From the NCBI GenBank assembly GCA_945881905.1, contig CAMCVV010000008.1, positions 1 through 59,571 on the forward strand: DNA of 59,571 bases, in the 5' to 3' direction. Under the pieces are notes generated by a model that was not told where the DNA came from, searched no databases, and saw nothing but the letters and a program-made list of their open reading frames with translations. Origin of the DNA: Paenibacillus alvei (lineage in GTDB: Bacteria > Bacillota > Bacilli > Paenibacillales > NBRC-103111). Of this stretch, positions 5,893 to 49,594 are shown in pieces (position 1 is the stretch's first letter; each line of letters starts with the position of its first letter). The position numbers were made by a program, and so were the translations under genes.

Positions 5893-7431
5893 TTACTCTT
5901 GTGTTTTTGATTTCATTTTGATGACGGTGTGTATACGCATAATCGCTGTAGCGACTTCACCTGCTGCGGTTAATGCATGAATTTTTACGTCTGTAGGATC
6001 CAGAATACCTGATTTGATGAAATCTGCCAGTTGTCCGGTTTCACAATCTATGCCTATTGCATCTGAATCGTTCACCATTTGTGCTGATTTAACTTCTTCG
6101 CTTTTCTCTAAAGGGTTATACCCTGCATTGGTCACGATTTGAATCAGTGGTTTGCGAAGTGCTTTCGCTACAACATCGATTCCGAATCCTTCCATGCCTT
6201 TGATATTCATTCGATACTCGTCAAGCTCACGTGCAACAGCGAACTCAGCTGATCCTCCACCAGGTAGAAATCCCCCGCGAATCGCTGCTTGCACAGCAGC
6301 TGCAGCATCTTTGGCTATCCGCGCGCGCTCACCTACAACTTCCTTCGTTGTTGCGCCAACTATAATCGTAACCTGCGGATGTTGTTGGCTTCCTGAGAGC
6401 CGTATTCGTTCTACATCTGGATCATACATAATCGTATCACATTGACCAAGCATGGTTTCAAGTTCTACTTCGCTTTTGTGCAAACCGTTCTTGCGAATCG
6501 GTTTTGCTCCGCTATACGAACAAATCGCATGCATTTCTTTGCGTGTTACCCGTTGAACGACGATAATTCCTTGATCAGCACAATATTGTTCTGCTTCAGC
6601 ATCGATACTGCGATCTACGATAATCAATCCGACTTTCAGTTTGGCTAATTTCTGCAGATCTTGCTGAAATTGTTGCTGGAACAACACATGTCTCTGAAAT
6701 CCTGCTTCTGTAACCAACGCTTCTTCATTGACATGTTCAGGTTCAAAAGCGTCGAGAATCACTAGAATTCGGTTTGAATGCACATCACTTTGCGTGTGAA
6801 ATTGCAGAGGCTTATGATGGATCATAATCCCCGGCCACACTTCGTTAATTGCTTGCTCATGAGAGATAATACAATCTGCAAATCGAAAAGTAGATTCTTT
6901 AAGTTTATCTATTCCCAACCGCTGTGCAGCGATAATGACAAGCTCAGCAATATCTGATTGTTCACGTCCAGCTGTGTGTGCAATATGCTGTAAATGTGCA
7001 TCCATGGTATCGTTAACGATTCGGCTATTGGCCCTGAATCGTTGGATGGCAAAGCGAATTCCATCTGTTAAACCTTGAATAACTTTCGCTACAGGAACTC
7101 CTCTGATCACTTGATCGACAGCTTCCTGAACTAGAGTGCTTGCTAATACTGTTGCAGTCGTCGTTCCGTCACCAATCGCTTTCTGTTGAGACTTCGCTAC
7201 TTGAATGAGAAGTCTAGCAGCAGGATGAGTAACATCCATCATATCCAATATCGTTACACCATCATTTGTAATAATGACTTCACCTTGTGCACCAACAAGC
7301 ATGGTATCTAATCCTTTTGGTCCAAGTGTGCTTTCTACAGCAGAGCAAATCGCTCTCACCGCAGTTGCGTTGTTCAGCAAAGTGGAGTAGCGTTCGTCGC
7401 TGTCTGGCGTTGGGGATTTACTTCCACTCAT
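5893..7431 (-). CDS. Archaeal-type (group II/III) chaperonin in the hrcA-dnaK operon
   Basis: 512 residues of the Cpn60/TCP-1 fold, but closer to thermosome/CCT than to GroEL. The nucleotide-binding loops read [11 protein letters not shown] (residues 36-46), [20 protein letters not shown] (53-72) and [11 protein letters not shown] (87-97). The [16 protein letters not shown] segment (368-383) holds the hydrolysis aspartate (Asp375), and [10 protein letters not shown] follows. The [14 protein letters not shown] stretch and the ending [12 protein letters not shown] match group II proteins (LRIDDVI type). Group III chaperonins in a few Firmicutes are known from the literature to occupy the dnaK operon, as here. 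They have a built-in lid and need no GroES; no groES gene is nearby. It is presumably heat-induced through CIRCE/HrcA. A housekeeping GroEL would be elsewhere in the genome. Confidence 0.88.
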
Positions 7432-38389: not shown

Positions 38390-38740
38390 TTATCCTTTGG
38401 GTTTCACCAAAATTGCTGCGAAAAACGAGAAAATAATGGCTGCTGAAATCCCTGCACTCGTGACTTCTAACATTCCCGTAATAATACCTATCCACCCATC
38501 TGCTCGAAATTCATGAAGCGCTCCGTGAACAAGTGCATTGCCGAAACTTGTGATCGGTACTGTCGCACCTGCTCCTGCAAATTCGATAAATGGATCATAC
38601 CACCCCAAACCATCTGTGATTGCTCCAAGAACAACAAGAGTGCTCATGGTATGCGCTGGAGTGAGCTTGATGATATCCATCATCAGTTGGCCCAATACAC
38701 AAATGGCTCCGCCAATCACAAAGGCCCAAACAAACTGCAT
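38390..38740 (-). CDS. spoVAE: SpoVAE (SpoVAEb-type) spore dipicolinate-channel protein
   Basis: 116 residues from the ATG at 38740, whose A is also the last base of the spoVAD stop (TGATG); longer frames upstream read out-of-family residues. Three or four membrane helices: [20 protein letters not shown] at the start, [20 protein letters not shown] as the conserved family block. Member of the SpoVAC/SpoVAEb family that forms the calcium-dipicolinate channel in the spore inner membrane. Confidence 0.9.
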
Positions 38741-39759
38741 CAATCGACAACACCTCCTGCTTCGATGGTTACTGCATGAGCGATACAAGGTATGCTTTCT
38801 CCTTGCTGGTATGATAATGGAGATAACAGAGCGCCCGTTGCAACTACAAGTATTCGTTTCAGCTCACCTTGATTTAACCGCCTGATGAAGTGACCATACG
38901 TAATGACTGCTGAGCAACCACAGCCACTGCCGCCTGCTTGCACGGTTTGCTTATCTCTGTCATAAATCATAAGTCCTCCATCGACATACGTTGTTTCGTG
39001 AATAGGTATATGGTGTTTGCGCATTAGCTCAATGGCAATCGCATAACCAACTGCACCGAGATCACCTGTCATGATCACGTCATAATCACTTGGGCCTCGA
39101 TTTAAGTCTCTAAAATGAGCTTGCATCGTATCTACTGCAGCAGGAGCCATAGCTGCTCCCATGTTGAATGGGTCTGTAATCCCCATATCGACAATTCGAC
39201 CTATGGTCGCAGCAGTTACGATTGGGCCTTTGCCACTTTTGGCTAACACTGCTGACCCTGCACCTGTAACTGTAAACTGAGCCGTTGGTGGTTTCTGTGA
39301 ACCATACTCTGTCGGATAGCGGAATTGTTTTTCTGCGGTACAATTATGACTGCAGGTTCCACATAGAATCGTTTCAGCTGCTCCTGCATCAATCATGCAT
39401 GCAGACAAAGCAAGTCCCTGCATAGAAGTCGAACATGCTCCGAATATTCCAATGTATGGAATGTTCAACGTTCTTGCCGCAAATGAAGCTGATATAATTT
39501 GATTCATCAAATCCCCACCGACAAAAAATTGAACCTGACCACTGGTTAATCCTGCTTTATCCAAAGCAAGCTGAGTTGATTCTTCCAAAATTCTTCTTTC
39601 GGCTTTCTCCCATGACGGTTGTCCGATCGTCAATTCATCATGAACGACATCGAATTCGGATTGCATCGGACCTTTGCCTTCATCAGGACCCACAACAGTT
39701 GCTGTAGCAATGATCACCGGAGGACGCGTAAATACCCAGCTTTGATGCCCTGTTAACAT
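38740..39759 (-). CDS. spoVAD: SpoVAD, dipicolinate-binding spore protein
   Basis: 339 residues from the ATG at 39759 ([16 protein letters not shown]), preceded by a GGTGG-type site; six more codons are open upstream but overlap spoVAC. It has a thiolase-like fold: [20 protein letters not shown] (Cys in the active-site-like loop), [15 protein letters not shown]. SpoVAD binds dipicolinic acid for uptake into the forespore. Coupled to spoVAE by a 1-base overlap. Confidence 0.92.
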
Positions 39760-39764
39760 CTTAG

Positions 39765-40235
39765 CTACACCACCCAATCATAGATCAGATGACAAATCCC
39801 TACCACAAATGCAGCTACAGTTCCGAACACAATGACTGACCCAGCGAGTTTAAACATATTGCCACCAACCCCCAGGACTAGACCCTCGGAACGATGTTCA
39901 ATTGCTGCTGAACACATGGAGTTAGCGAATCCTGTAACAGGAACAGCGGTACCTGCGCCAGCCCATTGTGCGATTTTATCGTATACGCCCATGCTCGTTA
40001 AAATCACTGACAATAAAATGAGTACAGCTACAGTGGGATCACCAGACGTCTGATCTGTGAAACCAAACCAACGCTCAAACATCTCCATGATGCCTTGACC
40101 AAGCAAACAAATGAATCCGCCAACAACAAAAGCAAAAAAACAGTTCTTCCATACAGGTCTTTTGGGTTCTATGTGTTTAGCCATTTTTTGATATTCTTGT
40201 TGCACTTTCGTGAATTTCTTCATGTTATTTGCCAT
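39765..40235 (-). CDS. spoVAC: SpoVAC, spore dipicolinate channel / mechanosensitive protein
   Basis: 156 residues from the ATG at 40235 (AGAGGAGGGTG upstream). Cytoplasmic basic N-terminus (EYQKMAKHIEPKRPVWKNCF), then four membrane helices with FVVGGFICLLGQGIMEMF and AGAGTAVPVTGFANSMCSAA. SpoVAC of Bacillus acts as a mechanosensitive channel releasing dipicolinate in germination. First gene of the three-gene spoVA set; forespore (sigma-G) promoter expected in 40236-40458 but not pinned down. Confidence 0.9.
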   Translation of the reverse strand: MANNMKKFTKVQQEYQKMAKHIEPKRPVWKNCFFAFVVGGFICLLGQGIMEMFERWFGFTDQTSGDPTVAVLILLSVILTSMGVYDKIAQWAGAGTAVPVTGFANSMCSAAIEHRSEGLVLGVGGNMFKLAGSVIVFGTVAAFVVGICHLIYDWVV

Positions 40236-40458
40236 CTTCACCCTCCTCTGTGCATTCTGCAGATGTCCTCTTCATGAATGTCTTATCGTAGATTACCCAT
40301 TTCTGTGAGATGCCATTCTAGAGAAATCCGAGTTGAAGAATCATGGACGAATAACATTTAGGAACAAAGCAAAGACAGCTATGAATAACACGAAGAAATC
40401 TAGGGAAGGATAATCACGATGGATTGCACATTAGATCATTGTAAAGGAGGTCGTCGCA

Positions 40459-40668: not shown

Positions 40669-40714
40669 AAAAAAACCAGCATATCGTGAATCTGATAAGA
40701 TCACGGTGCTGGTT
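40669..40714. terminator. Bidirectional terminator between DUF1657 gene and the B12 ECF operon
   Basis: AACCAGC...GCTGGTT with an inner CGTGA/TCACG stem. On the minus strand it is followed by seven T, a strong stop for the ECF operon; it overlaps the last gene's stop codon. On the plus strand it serves the DUF1657 gene. Confidence 0.85.
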
Positions 40715-41408
40715 ATTTATGATTGATCGTGTTATCTTCATATTTTCGGTGGTATCGTTGAAGGATCCGAATCCATACTTTGCCGAAAAGTAATAGAAAT
40801 AGGACATTGCTGATCGCATGTGCAAGATCAAAATAAAAGCTTGCCATATGGACAGTGAGCACAGATGTCCACGTGACAACAGATACAAATCCGAACAAAT
40901 ACGGAATGTTCATGATCCACCCGAATAGAAAACCCCATACACAGCCAAAAACGATTCGAGCCAATGTCGTTCTAAGCAGAGAAGTACGCAACCAACCCGC
41001 TGTGGCTCCCATCATGCCCCATCCAAACATTTGCCAAGGTGTCCATGGGCCTTGCCCTAACATAAAGTTAGATACGAGCGCAGCAGTAGCTCCGATCAAA
41101 AACCCCGCATCGGCTCCAAACACAATCGCTGAAACAATAATCACGAACGAAGTCGGGGTCACACTCGGAATGGAAGCAAAAGGTACACGACTAACAGCTG
41201 CTAAAGCAGCCATAGAAGCAATCAATACCATTTCTCTGCTATGAAGTGGCTTGCGTTCTAACTTTATATAAAAAGGAAGCATCGCTACAATAATTACATA
41301 TACACTAATCCATACATAATAATCAGACAAAGCTTCGATAACTGAAGCCATGAGTCCAATGACCAAGAGCGTGATCATGATGACGTTCATCCATCGTTTT
41401 TTTGGCAT
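40713..41408 (-). CDS. ECF transporter S component (predicted cobamide/B12 specificity)
   Basis: About 231 residues from the ATG at 41408 (MPKKRWMNVIMITLLVIGLM); a longer frame starts 14 codons earlier. Six or so membrane helices. The block SREMVLIASMAALAAVSRVP with the small-residue A-x3-A motif is the S-component surface that docks onto EcfT. The family resembles the CblT/ECF-S proteins often annotated as thiamine or riboflavin type. Specificity for cobalamin or a precursor is inferred only from the B12 riboswitch at the head of the operon. It is the last gene and overlaps the ATPase gene by about 22 bp. Confidence 0.75.
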   Translation of the reverse strand: MPKKRWMNVIMITLLVIGLMASVIEALSDYYVWISVYVIIVAMLPFYIKLERKPLHSREMVLIASMAALAAVSRVPFASIPSVTPTSFVIIVSAIVFGADAGFLIGATAALVSNFMLGQGPWTPWQMFGWGMMGATAGWLRTSLLRTTLARIVFGCVWGFLFGWIMNIPYLFGFVSVVTWTSVLTVHMASFYFDLAHAISNVLFLLLFGKVWIRILQRYHRKYEDNTINHK

Positions 41409-43087
41409 GATGCAACAACATCTCCCCATCGAATGGCATGTGGGACCCATTCGCGAACTAACCGCTGAATCGGTGTGGTGTAGAAATAATTTTCTCTTAA
41501 GAATATCTCTGGAGTGGCATCCACGATGATCATGCCATTAAACATCAGCATACAACGATTAGCTACTTCTGCTGCGAATTCAATATCATGCGTCGCAATA
41601 ATTATTGTAGTACCTTGCCGGTGCGCTTGCAAGAGGTGGCTCTGGATGCGCTCTTTATACATGGGATCAAGTCCTTTGGTAGGTTCGTCCAACAAGAGAA
41701 TGCGTGGTTGTCTCATCAACACGCAAGCTATCGCAAGTATTTGTTTCTCTCCACCACTCAGATCAAATGGGTGACGAAGTAAACACTTCTCCAGGCCATA
41801 AGAAGCAATCGTTTCATTGAAGTCTATGCTGTACCCATGATTCTGCGCGTAAGCCATAGCTGATTCTAGCTCTTGCTTTACCGTTTCTTTCAGAAAATGA
41901 AGCATGGGTTGTTGACCGATATACCCTATGGAAGTGCCTGTAGGTCGACCTGCTGAAGGTAAGTTCGCTAAGGGTTGAAGATGTACTGTGCCATACTGTG
42001 GTTTCAGCATTCCTGCCATAAGTTGTAATAATGTAGATTTACCACTGCCATTCGCACCAAACAAAGCAACCAGATCGCCTTGATGAAGCTGTACTGAAAG
42101 GTTTTTGCAAATCAGTTTACTGTTTTTTTGATATCGAAATACAAGCTCTGAAACTGATAACACAGGAACTCTTTGAACATCAGATTGAACATCAGATTGA
42201 ACATCAGATTGAACATTAAGATGCGTCATCAAGCTCTCTCCTGCTTCGTCTGAAGTAAGCTGTATGTGTTCCCAATTCATAGAAGCTAGCTGCTGTCTAA
42301 TTCCTTGTACCGTCATCGGCACTTCTTCACGTGTGCCTAATGCAATCATCAGTTGCGTAGCAGTAGGAAGGTATAGATCGAGTTGAGGGTGATGACGAAC
42401 GATTTCCTGTTTCGTGCCCTGAGCTACAATGACTCCTTGATCAATCAAACAGATTCGATCTACCAGTGACCATACTTCTTCTAATCGATGCATCGTCATC
42501 AGCACGGTGATGCCATAATCTTGATGAATTTTCGCGAGAAGTTGCATGAAGCTTGATGCCGCAATCGGATCTAATTGAGAAAGCGGTTCATCGAGTAACA
42601 GTATTTTGGGTTGTACCATAAGGATTGAAGCCAATTGGACCAATTGTTGTTGTCCACCGGACAAGGACATCGTAGGTTGCTCTAATAAGGGTTCGAGATC
42701 AAATAATTGAGCCATTTCAGCAAGGCGTTTGCGCATCACTGTGAGTGGCAAACCTAGATTTTCCATGGAAAAAACAAGCTCATCCACTACCCGCTCCATC
42801 ACGATATGTTGTTCGGGGTGTTGCATGACAAAACCAATCATCGATGATGTTTCGCGCTGCGAATAATCACTAATCCGCTTCCCATCTATGATGATTTCAC
42901 CTGTCATCTTTCCTGCTGGCATGATTTCTGGCACGCATAATTTGAATAGTGTGGATTTGCCACTACCCGAAGCACCGCAAATCACGACCCATTGCCCTTG
43001 TTCGACCTGTACATGGAGATTATGGATTGCAGGTGTCGTATGATCAAGGTACGTAAAGCTTACATCATTGAATTCAATGAACGCCAT
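41387..43087 (-). CDS. Fused double ECF ATPase (EcfA-EcfA')
   Basis: 566 residues from the ATG at 43087 (MAFIEFNDVSFTYLD), preceded by a GGGAGAG site; an upstream GTG/ATG frame inside ecfT is rejected. Two complete ABC domains are fused. First: Walker A GASGSGKST, signature LSGGQQQLVQ, Walker B LLLDEPLSQLDP. Second: GANGSGKSTLLQ, LSGGEKQILA, LLLDEPTKGLDP. The linker holds a tetrapeptide repeat (SDVQ x3, DNA repeat 42173-42216). It powers the T/S membrane pair. Overlaps ecfT by 28 bp, so coupled. Confidence 0.92.
   Translation of the reverse strand: MAFIEFNDVSFTYLDHTTPAIHNLHVQVEQGQWVVICGASGSGKSTLFKLCVPEIMPAGKMTGEIIIDGKRISDYSQRETSSMIGFVMQHPEQHIVMERVVDELVFSMENLGLPLTVMRKRLAEMAQLFDLEPLLEQPTMSLSGGQQQLVQLASILMVQPKILLLDEPLSQLDPIAASSFMQLLAKIHQDYGITVLMTMHRLEEVWSLVDRICLIDQGVIVAQGTKQEIVRHHPQLDLYLPTATQLMIALGTREEVPMTVQGIRQQLASMNWEHIQLTSDEAGESLMTHLNVQSDVQSDVQSDVQRVPVLSVSELVFRYQKNSKLICKNLSVQLHQGDLVALFGANGSGKSTLLQLMAGMLKPQYGTVHLQPLANLPSAGRPTGTSIGYIGQQPMLHFLKETVKQELESAMAYAQNHGYSIDFNETIASYGLEKCLLRHPFDLSGGEKQILAIACVLMRQPRILLLDEPTKGLDPMYKERIQSHLLQAHRQGTTIIIATHDIEFAAEVANRCMLMFNGMIIVDATPEIFLRENYFYTTPIQRLVREWVPHAIRWGDVVASCQKNDG
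42173..42216. repeat. In-frame 12-bp tandem repeat (x3.7) in the ATPase linker
   Basis: Unit TTGAACATCAGA is repeated exactly three times plus 8 bases. On the coding strand it adds SDVQ units between the two ABC domains. Multiples of 12 keep frame, so copy-number change would only lengthen the linker. Confidence 0.95.
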
Positions 43088-43947
43088 TTCAACCAATCTC
43101 TCCCTTCGATGAGCACAGGTATGATTAAATAAATGGTCACACACCCATAAACCATCCATTGGTCTAGCGTTAGGGTAAGTGGTGACCGTTGCGGATAATA
43201 CTCAAATGTAACCAGACGAAGGAATACGCTCGTCAAGCTTCCGCTCGCGAGAACTATCCAAATCATCAATAGTACTTTATCGCGTTTACTCCAGTGGTAT
43301 AACGTGAATTGACTTCTTTGTCCACTGTGGTATCCTCGTGCTTTCATCGAATCAGCTGTATGTAATCCTTCTTCTAATGTCCAGGTTAACATCATTTGCA
43401 CCATAGACATCCCTAGAACTAGTTGTTTTTTCCGAGCAGACATGTTCAAGTGTTCATCATACGAACGATGGATTCGCATCAATTGTTGAAACCTGATCGT
43501 AAGTAATGTAAAACTACGTAATGCCATAGATACCAGCATAGCTCCCTTAGGGGATATGTTACTGAATAGAAACAGAATTTGACTCGATGCTAACACCTGT
43601 TGTGCTGACAAAATCCACATGAATAGTGTGAAAAGTTGGATCGCCGCAAAAAAACCATACATGACTGCTTCAAGCGTTATCGGTAACTTCCCTAGATAAA
43701 ATAAGAGGTGTTCACCTTGATGAGAAATCAAAGGATTCACTAGAAACCACACGAGACTCATCCCGATGTAGAAATAAAGCCATGAACCTTTCTTCGAAAA
43801 ACTACCTTGAACAAGATTTAAACAAACAGCAACTCCGAGCGATGTGAGAATAAACCATGGATGAGGATATATAAATAATAAGCTGATTGCACCTCCATAA
43901 TAGATGAATGCTACAAGTGGATGTACATGTCTTAGCCCCGTGTTCAT
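43060..43947 (-). CDS. ecfT: EcfT, ECF transporter transmembrane component
   Basis: 295 residues. Five to six membrane helices and a cytoplasmic coupling region. The diagnostic EcfT motif TADSMKARGYHSGQRS (Ala-Arg-Gly coupling helix that grips the ATPases) is near residue 200, with MALRSFTLLTIRFQQLMRI before it. It couples ATP hydrolysis to movement of the S component. Its start overlaps the end of the DUF4430 lipoprotein gene by 4 bp (ATGA), which ties that lipoprotein to the transporter. Confidence 0.92.
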   Translation of the reverse strand: MNTGLRHVHPLVAFIYYGGAISLLFIYPHPWFILTSLGVAVCLNLVQGSFSKKGSWLYFYIGMSLVWFLVNPLISHQGEHLLFYLGKLPITLEAVMYGFFAAIQLFTLFMWILSAQQVLASSQILFLFSNISPKGAMLVSMALRSFTLLTIRFQQLMRIHRSYDEHLNMSARKKQLVLGMSMVQMMLTWTLEEGLHTADSMKARGYHSGQRSQFTLYHWSKRDKVLLMIWIVLASGSLTSVFLRLVTFEYYPQRSPLTLTLDQWMVYGCVTIYLIIPVLIEGRDWLKWRSLNSMM

Positions 43948-44510
43948 GGCTTCAACTCGAGATCTTTACCAAAGTCTAAGGTATACAACCATTCAACGGA
44001 ATCGCCTACTTGGACTATGTAGGTACCTGCACTTTTTTGTGCATTCACACCATTCACTCGATAGAGCCAGCCACTTTTTGCGCCGCGATCTAATTGATAC
44101 AGTCCACCTATACCCAAAATATAAGCAGTCATCCCACGACCTGAATAATCAAGTTCGATACCATGTAACGCCGTGAGCTGTATGAGTAGTTCAAGTACGC
44201 TTGTCTGATCTTGAACTACAAGCTGAGTAGGTGGTAAGATTGTGCCGTGCTTGTCATCTCCGATAATCGTTAGCATAACACTTCGGAGTGCCTCCTGAGG
44301 AGCGACAGCAGATGAAGCTTCAGGATTTGCTGATGAAAGCGCAGGTTCAGACGCTTTAGTGTCTATTGGTTTGCTCTGTGTTAACACTTCATCTGCTTGC
44401 ACTTGGGAAGTTGGTTGGTTCGCGAAGCCACAACTTGTGACCATGATGATGAGTAAAGTCACGAGCACGATCCATCCCACTTGTCCTATGCGATTATGCA
44501 TGCTCGTCAC
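43944..44510 (-). CDS. DUF4430 lipoprotein (transcobalamin C-terminal-like domain)
   Basis: 188 residues. Signal region VGWIVLVTLLIIMVTSCGF with lipobox VTSC (Cys27), so a membrane-anchored lipoprotein. A Ser/Ala/Pro linker (about residues 30-72) precedes one DUF4430 domain: VMLTIIGDDKHGTILPPTQL, SVLELLIQLTALHGIELDYS, GRGMTAYILGIGGLYQLDRG, SGWLYRVNGVNAQKSAG and VGDSVEWLYTLD. DUF4430 corresponds to the beta domain of intrinsic factor/transcobalamin. Coupled to ecfT by ATGA. Inferred role: docking or receiving corrinoid at the membrane between the secreted binder and the S component. Confidence 0.85.
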   Translation of the reverse strand: MTSMHNRIGQVGWIVLVTLLIIMVTSCGFANQPTSQVQADEVLTQSKPIDTKASEPALSSANPEASSAVAPQEALRSVMLTIIGDDKHGTILPPTQLVVQDQTSVLELLIQLTALHGIELDYSGRGMTAYILGIGGLYQLDRGAKSGWLYRVNGVNAQKSAGTYIVQVGDSVEWLYTLDFGKDLELKP

Positions 44511-44532
44511 TTCCTTTCCTTCATATAGTTGA

Positions 44533-44960
44533 TTATCGTTTCATCTGCTTGGCGCGAATCATGATGACAGCTATCATTTCTCGAGTTACATATTCGTTAG
44601 CTTTGAAGTGTGACTCATCCATGCCATTCATCAAGCCTTCTCTAACCACGGCTTGTAGATGAAGAAGTGAAGAAGGTGACATGTTCTGCAGATCAATAAA
44701 TGTGTGAGGTTTCGTGATTGAAGTATCCAACTGTAACGCTCTAGATAGCATCACAGCGAATTGTCCGCGAGTAAGTTTCTCATCAGGAGCAAATACTCCT
44801 AGTGTTAACCCTTCCACGAATCCCAGTTGTCTAGCGCTTTCGATATATGCCGCATATCATTTCTCTGAAGAGACATCTGTGAAGCTTGACTTTGTGATTG
44901 GTGATTCAGCAATACCCAACATATCATGATACCTAGCGCATTGGCTTGGATAATCGCAGA
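44533..44960 (-). pseudogene. Broken S-layer-homology (SLH) anchor region
   Basis: Remains of two to three SLH motifs. On the minus strand one frame shows AIIQANALGIM (end of an SLH repeat). Another frame then reads SSFTDVSSEK-stop-YAAYIE SARQLGFVEG, where a TGA at 44859-44857 replaces the conserved Trp of SEKWYA. After that, FAPDEKLTRGQFAVMLSRAL and a third motif ending EYVTREMIAVIMIRAKQM are open to the stop at 44533. The open part has only a GTG (44817) without a ribosome site. Either this was the C-terminal cell-wall anchor of the 710-residue B12 protein or a separate SLH gene. A sequencing error at one or two positions would also explain it. Confidence 0.7.
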
Positions 44961-44978
44961 TAACGCTCAAGGAGAAGC

Positions 44979-47111
44979 CTATCGCATATCGTTGAACAAG
45001 TTCAATGGTTGTTCGTAACGCAGAACGCTCGGCGAACCTTTGGCTTGGTAGCCTGTTACCACAATCGTGTAATGTCCTGCAGGCAATCCTTCACTGATCG
45101 TGATTGAACCATCTGAATTCGTTGTATGGGTTTGATTGGCGACTTGAACTTGAACGCCTACAGCAGGAGTGACGATGGCTTTCATTAATGTCGAGTCCCA
45201 ACTTTCTTGTGTGACCCTTATCTGCATAGGTTGTTTGTTGGTTGGATCAGCTTGGGATAATTGAATGTCGTGAATATATGCTGTTGCGTATCCATAGTAT
45301 ACATACACATGGTCGTTAGGTCGCAAATCATAATCTTCGATCCCTGTGTCCGGATACACCCATGTACCACCTCTTTGGATAGCAAACATCCAACCATCTG
45401 TGTCTGTTTCTTCATCATTACCTACTCTCGTTACATATTTCCCGTAACTCGAATCCTCCACAGTTAGCATGAGCTTGCTTTTCCTTGCGACTTGTTCGAG
45501 TGCATCTACACCACTGATCGCTGTGACGGTTTCACTTGCAAGTGATCCTCGGCTACCTTCAATCGTTATTCGTACTTGAACTTGCTTAGAAGCGACTTTG
45601 AACGTTCTCATGGCTTTCAAGATCAGAGGAGCCGCATCTTGTTGATACCCAGTAACAATCGCAACGGCTTGTCCCACAGACGATACACCTGTAAACGAAG
45701 CTTCTCCTAATTCATTCGATAAGACCGATTGTTGAGCTACAGTTACGAGAACTCCTTGGGCTGGCGTCGTAACGGCTTGATTTAATAACGTATCCCATTC
45801 TGTTTGTAGGACACGAATCGTGAAGGCTTGATTCACTTTAGGTTGCTCTGGCGTGATGATTATTTGTTGGGTTAGCTTAGTACTTCCACCAAAGTATACA
45901 TAGAGATGGTCCATCGGTTCAAGGTTGAAATCAGCCATGCCTCCTTGCGGATGAATCCACGCATCTTGGCGCTTGATCGCAAACAACCATCGATCGTTAC
46001 CCTTTTCTTGAATGCCTTGAATGCTTGATACATAAGGCCCACTCACAGAATCTGTTACCACTAGCTGCAAGTTCTCATTTGTAGCCAAGTTTCGCAGCGC
46101 TGCTAACGCTGTCGATGCTTCAACAACACCAAGTGATAGTGTTGATTGTGATCCTTCAACGGTAATACTGACTTGCGTCGATACACTGACTTTATAGAAT
46201 AATGATCCTTGCTGCTGCAGCCACATCCGATATGCCGTTAAGGCTTGTAGAGCTTGCTCCGTGGAGATTTGATAAGACTGCGATCCGATGCTATGAGCGA
46301 ATCCACCATCTGTAGTTTGGTATTGCGCGAGTCGTTGCAATAGGTTATTGCTTTTGGTGAACGCTCTAGATTGCGGATCGATTCCCAAACTCGTCAATGC
46401 AATGATGACTTGAGCGATACTTTCACTTGTTTCACCTAATTCTGCAAACCCACCGTTGGGTAATTGTTTCGATGACAGCCAAGCTACTGCTTGATCCACA
46501 ATCGGTTTCACCAACGTATTCAACTCATAGTAAGGTGCTAGTGCAGTAATCGCCATTGCAGTAACATCTATGCTACTCGTATCGCCTGCTGCATAAGGCC
46601 ATCCCTTGTCAGGGTTAGAGGAATCTAGAAGTGTTTGCAATAATACGTCACGCATCTTACTTTCATGCGGCAGTAGTGGGCTTCTCCCGCTATCTAAAGC
46701 AATTAAACCAAAAATCACAGACATGTTTCCTTTTGCAGGTACTTGCGAATCTTTGCTCAAGATATCCATTAAATTATACCCTGCGATGCGAGTAGGATTG
46801 TGACCCAAAGTATGTAAGACAATAATCAAACGTTCAATATCTGCGGGGTTATTCCATTTCCCTTTACTTTTGGTTACATAGGACTCGATTTCTTTGAGGT
46901 AGCTATTCCCGGATACCAGCATACCAGCTCGCGATAAAGCAAATACTGACCAATCGGTAAGCTCATTGCTTTGTAAATATGCGCCAGCTTGTGTGATCTG
47001 ACGATTGAGTAAGGCATCTGCTTTTTGATCATGGCCTATGATAGCTCCAACAAACAGGAGCATCATACCAAATACTACTAGTATCGATACAATCTTAAAT
47101 CTTCTCATCAT
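44979..47111 (-). CDS. Secreted intrinsic-factor/transcobalamin-like protein (helical toroid plus two DUF4430 domains)
   Basis: 710 residues. Signal peptide or anchor at 8-27. Residues ~35-300 form helical repeats of the prenyltransferase/squalene-cyclase alpha-alpha toroid type: NPDKGWPYAAGDTSSIDVTA, LPNGGFAELGETSESIAQVI, TTDGGFAHSIGSQSYQISTE. Then DUF4430 no. 1 (~313-409; ends NLEPMDHLYVYFGG), an Ig/carboxypeptidase-like module (~410-505), DUF4430 no. 2 (~511-608; ends LRPNDHVYVYYGY) and a second Ig-like module (~609-700). A toroid plus this beta domain is the fold of animal intrinsic factor, haptocorrin and transcobalamin. The gene is first behind a B12 riboswitch and upstream of an ECF transporter, so extracellular corrinoid capture is inferred. 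The signal peptide and repeats are seen; binding is not proven. An AGGAGAG site precedes the ATG. Confidence 0.85.
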   Translation of the reverse strand: MMRRFKIVSILVVFGMMLLFVGAIIGHDQKADALLNRQITQAGAYLQSNELTDWSVFALSRAGMLVSGNSYLKEIESYVTKSKGKWNNPADIERLIIVLHTLGHNPTRIAGYNLMDILSKDSQVPAKGNMSVIFGLIALDSGRSPLLPHESKMRDVLLQTLLDSSNPDKGWPYAAGDTSSIDVTAMAITALAPYYELNTLVKPIVDQAVAWLSSKQLPNGGFAELGETSESIAQVIIALTSLGIDPQSRAFTKSNNLLQRLAQYQTTDGGFAHSIGSQSYQISTEQALQALTAYRMWLQQQGSLFYKVSVSTQVSITVEGSQSTLSLGVVEASTALAALRNLATNENLQLVVTDSVSGPYVSSIQGIQEKGNDRWLFAIKRQDAWIHPQGGMADFNLEPMDHLYVYFGGSTKLTQQIIITPEQPKVNQAFTIRVLQTEWDTLLNQAVTTPAQGVLVTVAQQSVLSNELGEASFTGVSSVGQAVAIVTGYQQDAAPLILKAMRTFKVASKQVQVRITIEGSRGSLASETVTAISGVDALEQVARKSKLMLTVEDSSYGKYVTRVGNDEETDTDGWMFAIQRGGTWVYPDTGIEDYDLRPNDHVYVYYGYATAYIHDIQLSQADPTNKQPMQIRVTQESWDSTLMKAIVTPAVGVQVQVANQTHTTNSDGSITISEGLPAGHYTIVVTGYQAKGSPSVLRYEQPLNLFNDMR

Positions 47112-47193
47112 TGGGATTACTCTCCTTCATCGACGTTAGCTAATGACTTTCAACGTCTTTGAACTAGAAATAGTGCTGAACTTCATGTTCATC

Positions 47194-47223
47194 AAAAAAA
47201 GCATTCCCGTGTGAGGAATGCTT
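47194..47223 (-). terminator. Riboswitch expression-platform terminator
   Basis: Minus strand AAGCATTCC-TCACACG-GGAATGCTT followed by a run of T, between the cobalamin riboswitch and the 710-residue gene. It is the expected OFF-state stop when B12 is bound. Confidence 0.9.
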
Positions 47224-47289
47224 GGCAAGTAAAACTGAAAGACACAGAAAGATACAAATGCATGCAATTTGCATCGAACTGTACTCACG

Positions 47290-47500
47290 TTTGCCCCTAT
47301 TCCTCGTAGGTCAAAGTATTGGAAATAAGGCAGGTCTCCTGACTAAGAGTCGTCGCTTGTATCGTCGTCTTCCCACAAAAGTTCTCACACTTCTGCAGTG
47401 ACCTATGTACGATTAGCTACTCTATTACAGTGGCGGGACCGTGTCGGTTTTACACCGAACTTCCCTATTAAGCTGAATGTTCAGCACCTTATTTCTCAAA
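47290..47500 (-). ncRNA. Cobalamin (B12) riboswitch
   Basis: Minus strand carries the conserved aptamer blocks in order: TTCGGTGTAAAACCGAC, GGTCCCGCCACTGT (GCCACTG at 47428-47434) and the B12 box AGTCAGGAGACCTGCC (47329-47344). 5' and 3' limits are approximate. Followed by a perfect terminator hairpin, so B12 should shut off transcription of the downstream uptake operon. Confidence 0.95.
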
Positions 47501-47523
47501 AATATTCAATTAGCGTTGGCATC

Positions 47524-48904: not shown

Positions 48905-49594
48905 ATGGAATTGATTGTCCAGTATTCGTTTTTAGTAGCGTTTGTCGGTATGGCTGCAGCAACTCTTTATTTCCTATTAGAAAGAGGAGATTTAAAGCCA
49001 GAACATCGTTCAACAGCAACACTTGGTGCATTGATTACGTTCATCGCAGCTATTAATTACTACTATATGAGAATTGAAGTTCTCGATGGAGTAAGCGAGT
49101 TTCCTACACAACTGCGATACATAGATTGGATCCTTACTACACCATTGTTATTGATCAAATTCCCGAATTTACTTGGCATCAAGAACAGTTCAAGTTTAAT
49201 CACACGACTCGTTATCGCAGATGTAGCGATGATTGTTTTGGGGTATTTGGGTGAAGTGGATTTGAATGATAATGGATACACCAGCTATGGGTTGACGATG
49301 TTCATCTTATCTTGCGTGGCTTGGTTAGTTATTATATACATCTTGTTCACAACATTATCGAAAGCTGCTGAAGGGAAGTCACCTGCGATTAAGAAAGCCT
49401 TCACAACGATGAGATACTTTGTTGTTTTCGGTTGGGCGATCTATCCAATTGGCTATCTCGTAGCGATGATCGCTGGAGACGATTTCAGTCTTGTCCGTGA
49501 ATTAGTATACACCTATGCTGACTTGATTAACAAAGTCGGATTTGCTTTAGTTGCGCTCTCAGCTGTGAAAGTCATGAGCAAAGAAGCCAAGTAG
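48905..49594 (+). CDS. Microbial (type I) rhodopsin, predicted light-driven proton pump
   Basis: 229 residues, seven membrane helices, with no N-terminal extension. Helix C reads LRYIDWILTTPLLLIK: Arg71, Asp74 (acceptor, bacteriorhodopsin D85), Thr78 (T89) and Lys85 at the donor position (D96). This DTK pattern is that of Exiguobacterium rhodopsin. Helix G has YADLINKVGFALV with Asp206 and the retinal Lys210. Helix F has WAIYPIGY. Leu82 at the tuning site suggests green absorption. The helix-B His that proteorhodopsins pair with the acceptor is replaced by Asn51 (INYYYMR). It has its own promoter and terminator, with no retinal-synthesis gene (blh, crt) in the window, so retinal must come from elsewhere. 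Confidence 0.95.
   Translation: MELIVQYSFLVAFVGMAAATLYFLLERGDLKPEHRSTATLGALITFIAAINYYYMRIEVLDGVSEFPTQLRYIDWILTTPLLLIKFPNLLGIKNSSSLITRLVIADVAMIVLGYLGEVDLNDNGYTSYGLTMFILSCVAWLVIIYILFTTLSKAAEGKSPAIKKAFTTMRYFVVFGWAIYPIGYLVAMIAGDDFSLVRELVYTYADLINKVGFALVALSAVKVMSKEAK

Follow-up and report, generated by a model that had tools for sequence, protein, structure and literature searches.

A predicted B12 capture and import operon in Paenibacillus alvei with an intrinsic-factor-like secreted protein and a CbrT-type transporter

Introduction

The collection of trace vitamin B12 outside Gram-positive cells is poorly known, and an operon of Paenibacillus alvei, of a kind that occurs across the phylum, raises the question of whether an importer of the energy-coupling factor (ECF) type can be served by dedicated capture proteins outside the membrane. 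The window analysed here is the whole 59,571-nt contig CAMCVV010000008.1 of assembly GCA_945881905.1 (NBRC-103111 lineage), and all coordinates are forward-strand contig positions. The operon occupies the block 40713-47506, as delimited by open reading frame (ORF) calling together with Pfam, NCBIfam, Rfam and profile searches, and consists, from 5' to 3', of a cobalamin riboswitch, a terminator-like hairpin, a secreted protein of 710 residues, a DUF4430 lipoprotein, EcfT, a fused EcfAA' and an S component. It is very probably repressed by B12 and devoted to the capture and import of cobalamin, probably also of cobinamide, in a host that needs the vitamin. The parts, their conservation, the riboswitch linkage, the family of the S component and the folds were computed here. 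An original prediction made from the sequence had named the same parts; all of them are present, on the minus strand, and the overlaps that it described between neighbouring gene ends are confirmed.

The class itself had been foreseen. Burroughs and others (2007, PMC1796856) described bacterial transcobalamin-like domains, fused to a toroid on either side, and predicted in silico that they scavenge B12; the paralogous outer proteins shared an operon with genes for CbiO and CbiQ, the hosts were usually short of B12 synthesis, and animals were proposed to have acquired the toroid version from Gram-positive bacteria. The words 'riboswitch' and 'SLH' do not occur in that text, which predates the work on CbrT. 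The original prediction had known of no experimental description of such a system, and experimental work on a DUF4430 B12 binder from bacteria was not found in the open-access literature (subscription papers and preprints being outside the scope); the idea, however, is not new in silico. The operon is a member of the class predicted in 2007 and apparently never tested at the bench. What the present analysis adds is a measure of how the class is linked to the riboswitch, CbrT and SLH domains, together with a survey, models of the structures and the finding of a broken anchor in P. alvei.

The ECF Transporter and Its S Component

The operon holds a complete ECF set, namely EcfT, two ABC ATPases fused on one chain and an S component. 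EcfT has no Pfam match and was recognised by a profile of 19 homologues, which found the EcfT chain 5D3M_D (E 1.4e-18). For the S component, a profile of 24 homologues selected CbrT (6FNP_A, E 6.3e-24), the only other Protein Data Bank (PDB) chain up to E 1 lying at 0.016; by its sequence it is a member of the CbrT family, CbrT being a proven cobalamin S component. The Pfam label ECF-ribofla_trS had made riboflavin or another type a candidate, dropped since the PDB profile selects CbrT. The true starts of EcfAA' and of the S component are probably at about 43084 and 41408, both downstream of the longest-ORF starts.

As described for L. delbrueckii, ECF-CbrT takes up cobalamin and cobinamide in E. 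coli and in liposomes; the S component is there termed the substrate-binding protein of ECF transporters, and cbrS, the gene beside cbrT, is mentioned once, without description (PMC5997447). In our reading, an S component usually operates without outer partners. The transporter of P. alvei resembles it in the S-component family, EcfT and the EcfA/A' motor, and differs in that the motor lies inside the operon, EcfA and EcfA' are fused and outer capture proteins are co-encoded. BtuCDF is alike in taking up B12 with a capture protein but belongs to another transporter class. In eight surveyed loci, EcfA, EcfA' and the S component are apparently one chain of about 826-894 residues (L047, L065, L067, L108, L111, L120, L134 and L146), the S part having been scored only for L108, L111, L120, L134 and L146.

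The Riboswitch and the Host

The gathering score for the aptamer (Table 1) is 31.5 bits, and at E <= 0.001 RF00174 matches nowhere else in the genome of 2.40 Mb. A terminator scan found five sites across the region compared with 4.9 in shuffles, so that it is no proof by itself; the 46 nt from 47235 to 47190, however, have a folding energy of -12.8 kcal/mol (z -3.4), a value matched by 2 of 200 shuffled sequences. When the nascent RNA is folded without the 3' arm of the terminator, the region of the 5' arm is predicted to pair near 47305-47299; the exact complement to the terminator arm is only 6 bases long, and no statistical claim is attached to this antiterminator. Sigma-70-type promoter sites are not enriched in the region (13 found, 16.9 in shuffles). 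The anatomy of the leader suggests that the hairpin would be the expression platform of a B12 off-switch, with read-through past the terminator permitted when B12 is scarce.

Among the proteins of the host are a MetH that carries B12-binding and activation domains, a radical-SAM protein that also has a B12-binding domain, and a cobalamin adenosyltransferase. MetE (PF01717) has no match in the genome (control search positive in 10 of 14 genomes), and neither has CbiC (control positive in 7 of 14). Since B12 proteins such as MetH are present and no MetE or CbiC was found, the host is predicted to need imported B12, and it seems unable to make it. Three FecCD-type permease matches were obtained, one of them above the cut-off (37.7 bits) and the third at 22.1 bits, below it; the two best are neighbouring ABC-3 permeases (161 and 170 bits). 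The operon is the only riboswitch-linked B12 uptake route found, other B12 uptake families not having been searched.

Conservation of the Locus

The S profile was scanned over one genome per species, DUF4430 having no part in the scan, and the best 80 of 581 confirmed candidates, ranked by likeness to this S component, were retained. Counts were made on the 72 loci with at least 6 kb before the S component, which leaves out seven with less (L161, L164, L175, L191, L203, L207 and L218) and L173, which has no S ORF. DUF4430 and EcfAA' occur in all 72, EcfT in 69, the toroid in 67 and an upstream cobalamin riboswitch in 65. Counted from the first base of the riboswitch, the first recognised gene lies 139-555 bases away in 62 of these 65 and 970-1096 in the other three, and that gene encodes a toroid-plus-DUF4430 protein in 58, DUF4430 only in five and a toroid only in two. 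The original prediction had asked whether the homologues lie mostly beside non-B12 transporters; they do not, as their S components are of the CbrT family and 65 of the 72 have a cobalamin riboswitch in front.

Seen from the DUF4430 side, PF14478 has matches at E <= 0.01 in 161 of the 392 order genomes and at E <= 0.001 in 121 of the 398 phylum genomes. Among 39 loci of the order, a riboswitch model, R1, matches 36 and an EcfAA' homologue above 330 bits is present in 31. As R1 was built from this locus and six of the 39, those six match by construction, and without them the count is 30 of 33; the three loci lacking a match are L034, L055 and L073, and both L055 and L073 are bounded on one side by a contig end. 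Across 30 kin genomes, the host's own included, 0 to 5 cobalamin riboswitches occur per genome, yet 36 of the 39 loci (up to 20 kb each) hold one, which excludes a chance association. Among 40 loci of the phylum, each from a different family, R1 matches 28, four of them below 45 bits (L112, L121, L131 and L146), and EcfAA' is present in 31. Five of the 40 have neither EcfAA' nor an S component with DUF4430 (L118, L123, L126, L133 and L136); L123 and L133 are short contigs, and L126 carries a riboswitch. The DUF4430-selected loci lean to high-scoring DUF4430, since they were hand-picked from the listed top places.

Other arrangements were also met. A CbrT-like S component lies near a small DUF4430 protein, with no EcfAA' of its own, in four of the 40 phylum loci (L109, L116, L119 and L125, the DUF4430 of the last being recorded only in the phylum-wide PF14478 scan). 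In L038, L060 and L064, large DUF4430-type genes stand with a cobalamin riboswitch and no EcfT/S set was recognised nearby; they are perhaps extra B12-regulated surface proteins. Clostridial-type loci have toroid-only genes beside DUF4430 genes (L127, L129, L139, L141, L204, L212 and L222), and in L212 (8317-9867) the toroid is a separate SLH-bearing protein, so that the halves of a clamp could possibly reside on two chains. In L151, L152 and L154, the riboswitch leads directly to a DUF4430 lipoprotein, with no toroid match, and the lipoprotein may therefore suffice. DUF4430 repeats precede the toroid in L157, L165, L168, L176 and similar loci, and a protein of 2063 residues (from position 342 of L190 onward) has nine weak DUF4430 repeats, then a toroid, DUF4430 and a second toroid.

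The Outer Proteins

The lipoprotein has a lipobox-like VTSC, and a motif of this kind is found in 15 of 33 aligned homologues; in our reading, many of the others appear to start with an uncleaved membrane anchor. Its domain model (pLDDT 88.9) has 19 PDB matches at E <= 0.001, of which 17 are animal B12 carriers or the isolated beta domain of human transcobalamin and two are chains of the Ruminococcus gnavus DUF4430 protein 3U7Z. In the VIA comparison, haptocorrin reaches Z 14.5 (rmsd 2.6, 102 aligned), intrinsic factor 14.1, the transcobalamins 12.9-13.7 and 3U7Z 12.6, the next unrelated fold lying at 8.6. A PDB search with the full lipoprotein alignment was discarded, being swamped by the low-complexity linker.

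The 710-residue protein appears to begin with a signal peptide. Pfam places a Prenyltrans toroid (PF00432, 29 bits, cut-off 26.5) at 145-293 and one DUF4430; with a cut-off of 23.8, the second copy scores 27.4 bits and the lipoprotein domain 50.3. The other copy falls below the cut-off but is a genuine repeat, since the stretches 305-499 and 504-698 share 37% identity (E 8e-47), and in the P. eucommiae protein Pfam finds DUF4430 at residues 344-419 (41 bits). A toroid profile made here, of which the protein is one of the 29 members, scores 322 bits on it. The structure model covers 680 residues (pLDDT 89.8, pTM 0.53), and in Foldseek its ranks 1-15 are all animal B12 carriers (E 3.4e-10 to 2.5e-8, rank 16 following at 2.5e-6), with alignments of 416-445 columns that span toroid and beta domain. 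PDB sequence profile searches with the large proteins were set aside: they gave S-layer, terpene-cyclase, alpha-2-macroglobulin-type and DNA-polymerase chains, and no animal B12 carrier among the best 60 of 70.

The original prediction had missed an SLH stretch at 44892-44533, between the genes of the 710-residue protein and the lipoprotein. It is out of frame with the ORF of the former and has an in-frame stop inside, and an ORF from 44817 scores as SLH; no SLH repeats are thus in frame at the C-terminus of the P. alvei protein. With the proteins of P. eucommiae (894 residues) and P. cymbidii (892 residues), the tblastn alignment crosses the 710-residue part and then shifts frame into the SLH stretch. 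When this protein was aligned with 28 others chosen from the 39 order loci, DUF4430, SLH and SQHop_cyclase_C were each found in 28 of the 29 and Prenyltrans in 26; SLH is kept in all 28 relatives, the P. alvei protein being the sole exception. The wall anchor seems to have been lost in this genome, or there is an assembly error, one genome of the genus being compared. With the SLH tail broken, the capture protein would either be set free or stay attached by nothing more than its signal peptide.

A Proposed Capture Relay and Its Weighing

Under a relay, the exported toroid-DUF4430 protein would clasp a single B12 between its toroid and beta domains in the manner of transcobalamin and intrinsic factor, a view drawn from fold and architecture, and in the relatives the SLH domains would fix it to the wall. 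The lipoprotein, a lone beta domain on a membrane anchor, would hold B12 near the membrane and hand it to the CbrT-type S component, through which the EcfT/EcfAA' motor would power its entry. The clamp leans on human transcobalamin, since its beta domain alone binds cobalamin (Cbl) and the two domains associate only with Cbl (PMC5599065); Cbl binds the beta domain first and the alpha domain next, and beta-only B12 carriers are said to occur in some organisms (PMC11107200). DUF4430 is also the name of the C-terminal domain of the vertebrate B12 binders (PMC4350170).

The operon is like the class of 2007 in its DUF4430-toroid fusion, second paralogous outer protein and CbiO/CbiQ-like genes, and differs in the riboswitch, CbrT-type S component and SLH linkage measured here and in its broken SLH tail. 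Compared with animal intrinsic factor, haptocorrin and transcobalamin, the modelled order of toroid then beta domain and the fold are the same; here, however, two beta-plus-Ig repeats follow the toroid, identity in the structural matches is 12-20%, secretion is of the Gram-positive kind, relatives are anchored to the wall and a separate beta-only lipoprotein exists. To our knowledge, no B12 complex of a bacterial toroid-DUF4430 protein has been described. The interpretation given in the original prediction gains support from the CbrT match, the riboswitch linkage and the carrier-like folds; binding of B12 by the outer proteins and the order of hand-over in a relay are what we infer. That dedicated outer proteins serve the ECF transporter, with B12 going from an intrinsic-factor-type clamp, wall-bound or free, to a beta-only lipoprotein and on to CbrT, is proposed tentatively, as a possibility a little short of probable.

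Several results weigh against the reading as a B12 capture and import operon. In the phylum, 12 of the 40 loci have no riboswitch match and nine no EcfAA'. The presence of DUF4430 in 72 of 72 S-selected loci is not fully independent, as the S profile was built from DUF4430-linked loci; one of the 65 riboswitches (L213) is a 20.8-bit match cut by a contig end, and seven loci have none (L187, L192, L216, L219, L223, L226 and L227, four of them lactobacilli), Rfam finding no cobalamin riboswitch in the first six. A thiamine pyrophosphate (TPP) riboswitch in L187 was considered as a counter-example and dropped: the gene behind it (6112-6702) is the thiamine transporter Thia_YuaJ (193.6 bits), and the DUF4430 operon begins past it, at 6808. 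By sequence alone, the lipoprotein profile, trimmed to the domain, has haptocorrin on top of the PDB at just E 0.26, so that its link to the animal carriers rests on predicted structure. ECF-CbrT is active in E. coli and liposomes with no outer protein (PMC5997447), and the outer proteins may therefore be dispensable. The model of the 710-residue protein lies at a full-length rmsd of about 22 A from the carriers, as an apo model of pTM 0.53, so that its domain placing differs from the closed carrier or is undefined. In the VIA comparison, the toroid alone is led by terpene/squalene-hopene cyclase (Z 22.4), with haptocorrin 49th at Z 18.4. The likeness to intrinsic factor claimed originally is upheld for the overall fold; the domain arrangement differs in the model, and the lone toroid is nearer to terpene cyclases.

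Of the alternatives, a natural substrate of cobalt or cobinamide rather than cobalamin, with outer proteins that salvage incomplete or foreign corrinoids, is rather unlikely. Cobinamide is also carried by CbrT (PMC5997447), and the lactobacillus locus L216 continues into genes for CobS and a histidine phosphatase, which would suit corrinoid remodelling; cobalt is disfavoured because CbrT alone among PDB chains is strongly related to the S component.

It is decidedly unlikely that the large protein acts mainly at the wall or surface, as a structural, polysaccharide-binding or adhesive protein with no B12 clamp, leaving B12 to the lipoprotein and CbrT. Such a role would suit the variable number and order of domains, with second toroids, repeats and, among the 58 first-gene proteins, 29 with the toroid first and 29 with DUF4430 first. 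The SLH domains of 28 of the 29 aligned proteins, the three loci with a riboswitch and DUF4430 lipoprotein but no toroid match, and a modelled arrangement unlike the closed carriers also fit it. Against it stand the place of the toroid-plus-DUF4430 protein, first behind the riboswitch in 58 of 65 cases, the toroid in 67 of 72 S-selected loci and the B12 carriers that fill Foldseek ranks 1-15 over toroid and beta domain together.

That the toroid is an enzyme, be it a terpene cyclase, a lyase or a glycosidase, in an operon for some other nutrient is extremely improbable. Haptocorrin is indeed a poorer match to the lone toroid than are squalene-hopene cyclase, terpene synthases and glycosidases, and the Pfam label is Prenyltrans/SQHop, but DxDD, the motif of squalene-hopene-type terpene cyclases, is missing from the 710-residue protein, none of the 29 proteins has it at the aligned place (it occurs elsewhere in three), and the linkage to riboswitch and CbrT indicates corrinoids.

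Features and Neighbouring Genes

Table 1. Coordinates of the operon features on contig CAMCVV010000008.1
Feature	Position	Strand	Evidence
Cobalamin riboswitch aptamer RF00174, full model 1-189	47312..47506	(-)	109.7 bits, E 1.3e-26
Intrinsic terminator-like hairpin, 10-bp stem and T run	47199..47223	(-)	between aptamer and first gene
Secreted 710-residue intrinsic-factor-like protein: alpha/alpha toroid, two DUF4430 (beta-grasp) and Ig-like repeats	44979..47111	(-)	ORF, Pfam, model
Alpha/alpha toroid domain, residues 29-299 of the 710-residue protein	46215..47027	(-)	toroid profile, Pfam, VIA
First DUF4430/beta domain, about residues 312-407	45891..46178	(-)	internal repeat, model secondary structure
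Second DUF4430/beta domain, about residues 511-609	45285..45581	(-)	PF14478 27.4 bits at 553-607
Broken SLH tail, in another frame than the 710-residue ORF	44533..44892	(-)	SLH 38.5 bits
DUF4430 (transcobalamin beta-domain-like) lipoprotein, 188 residues	43944..44510	(-)	PF14478 50.3 bits
EcfT transmembrane subunit	43060..43947	(-)	profile match to EcfT 5D3M_D
Fused EcfA-EcfA' ATPase	41387..43159	(-)	ABC_tran in two stretches; TIGR04520 332 bits
CbrT-family S component	40713..41450	(-)	profile match to CbrT 6FNP_A

An aldose-epimerase gene borders the operon, and about 340 bases past it lies a rhodopsin gene (48905-49594, plus strand; PF01036, bacteriorhodopsin-like, 167.8 bits), whose helix-C residues read D-T-K, as in the Exiguobacterium proton pump. 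Elsewhere in the genome (contig C66, L076:961-1866), a MerR regulator with B12-binding_2 and B12-binding domains is encoded, similar to the light- and B12-sensing CarH; this regulator and the rhodopsin together suggest a light-aware bacterium that imports B12. Downstream of the operon (38390-40241, minus strand) are genes of the SpoVAC/SpoVAEB, SpoVAD and SpoVAC/SpoVAEB families (127, 519 and 139 bits); with these SpoVA-type genes, the host is likely a spore former despite its 2.4 Mb genome.

Significance

The operon is widespread and was foreseen, yet it renders an apparently untested prediction of 2007 concrete and easily testable. If the relay is true, ECF transporters would have a mode of import new for them and widespread in the phylum, and the source from which the animal B12 carriers came would have its living relative in this system. 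Should the outer proteins bind B12 as intrinsic factor does, bacteria and animals would use homologous machinery for one vitamin, the proposed transfer from Gram-positive bacteria to animals would become testable and ECF transporters would gain capture proteins.

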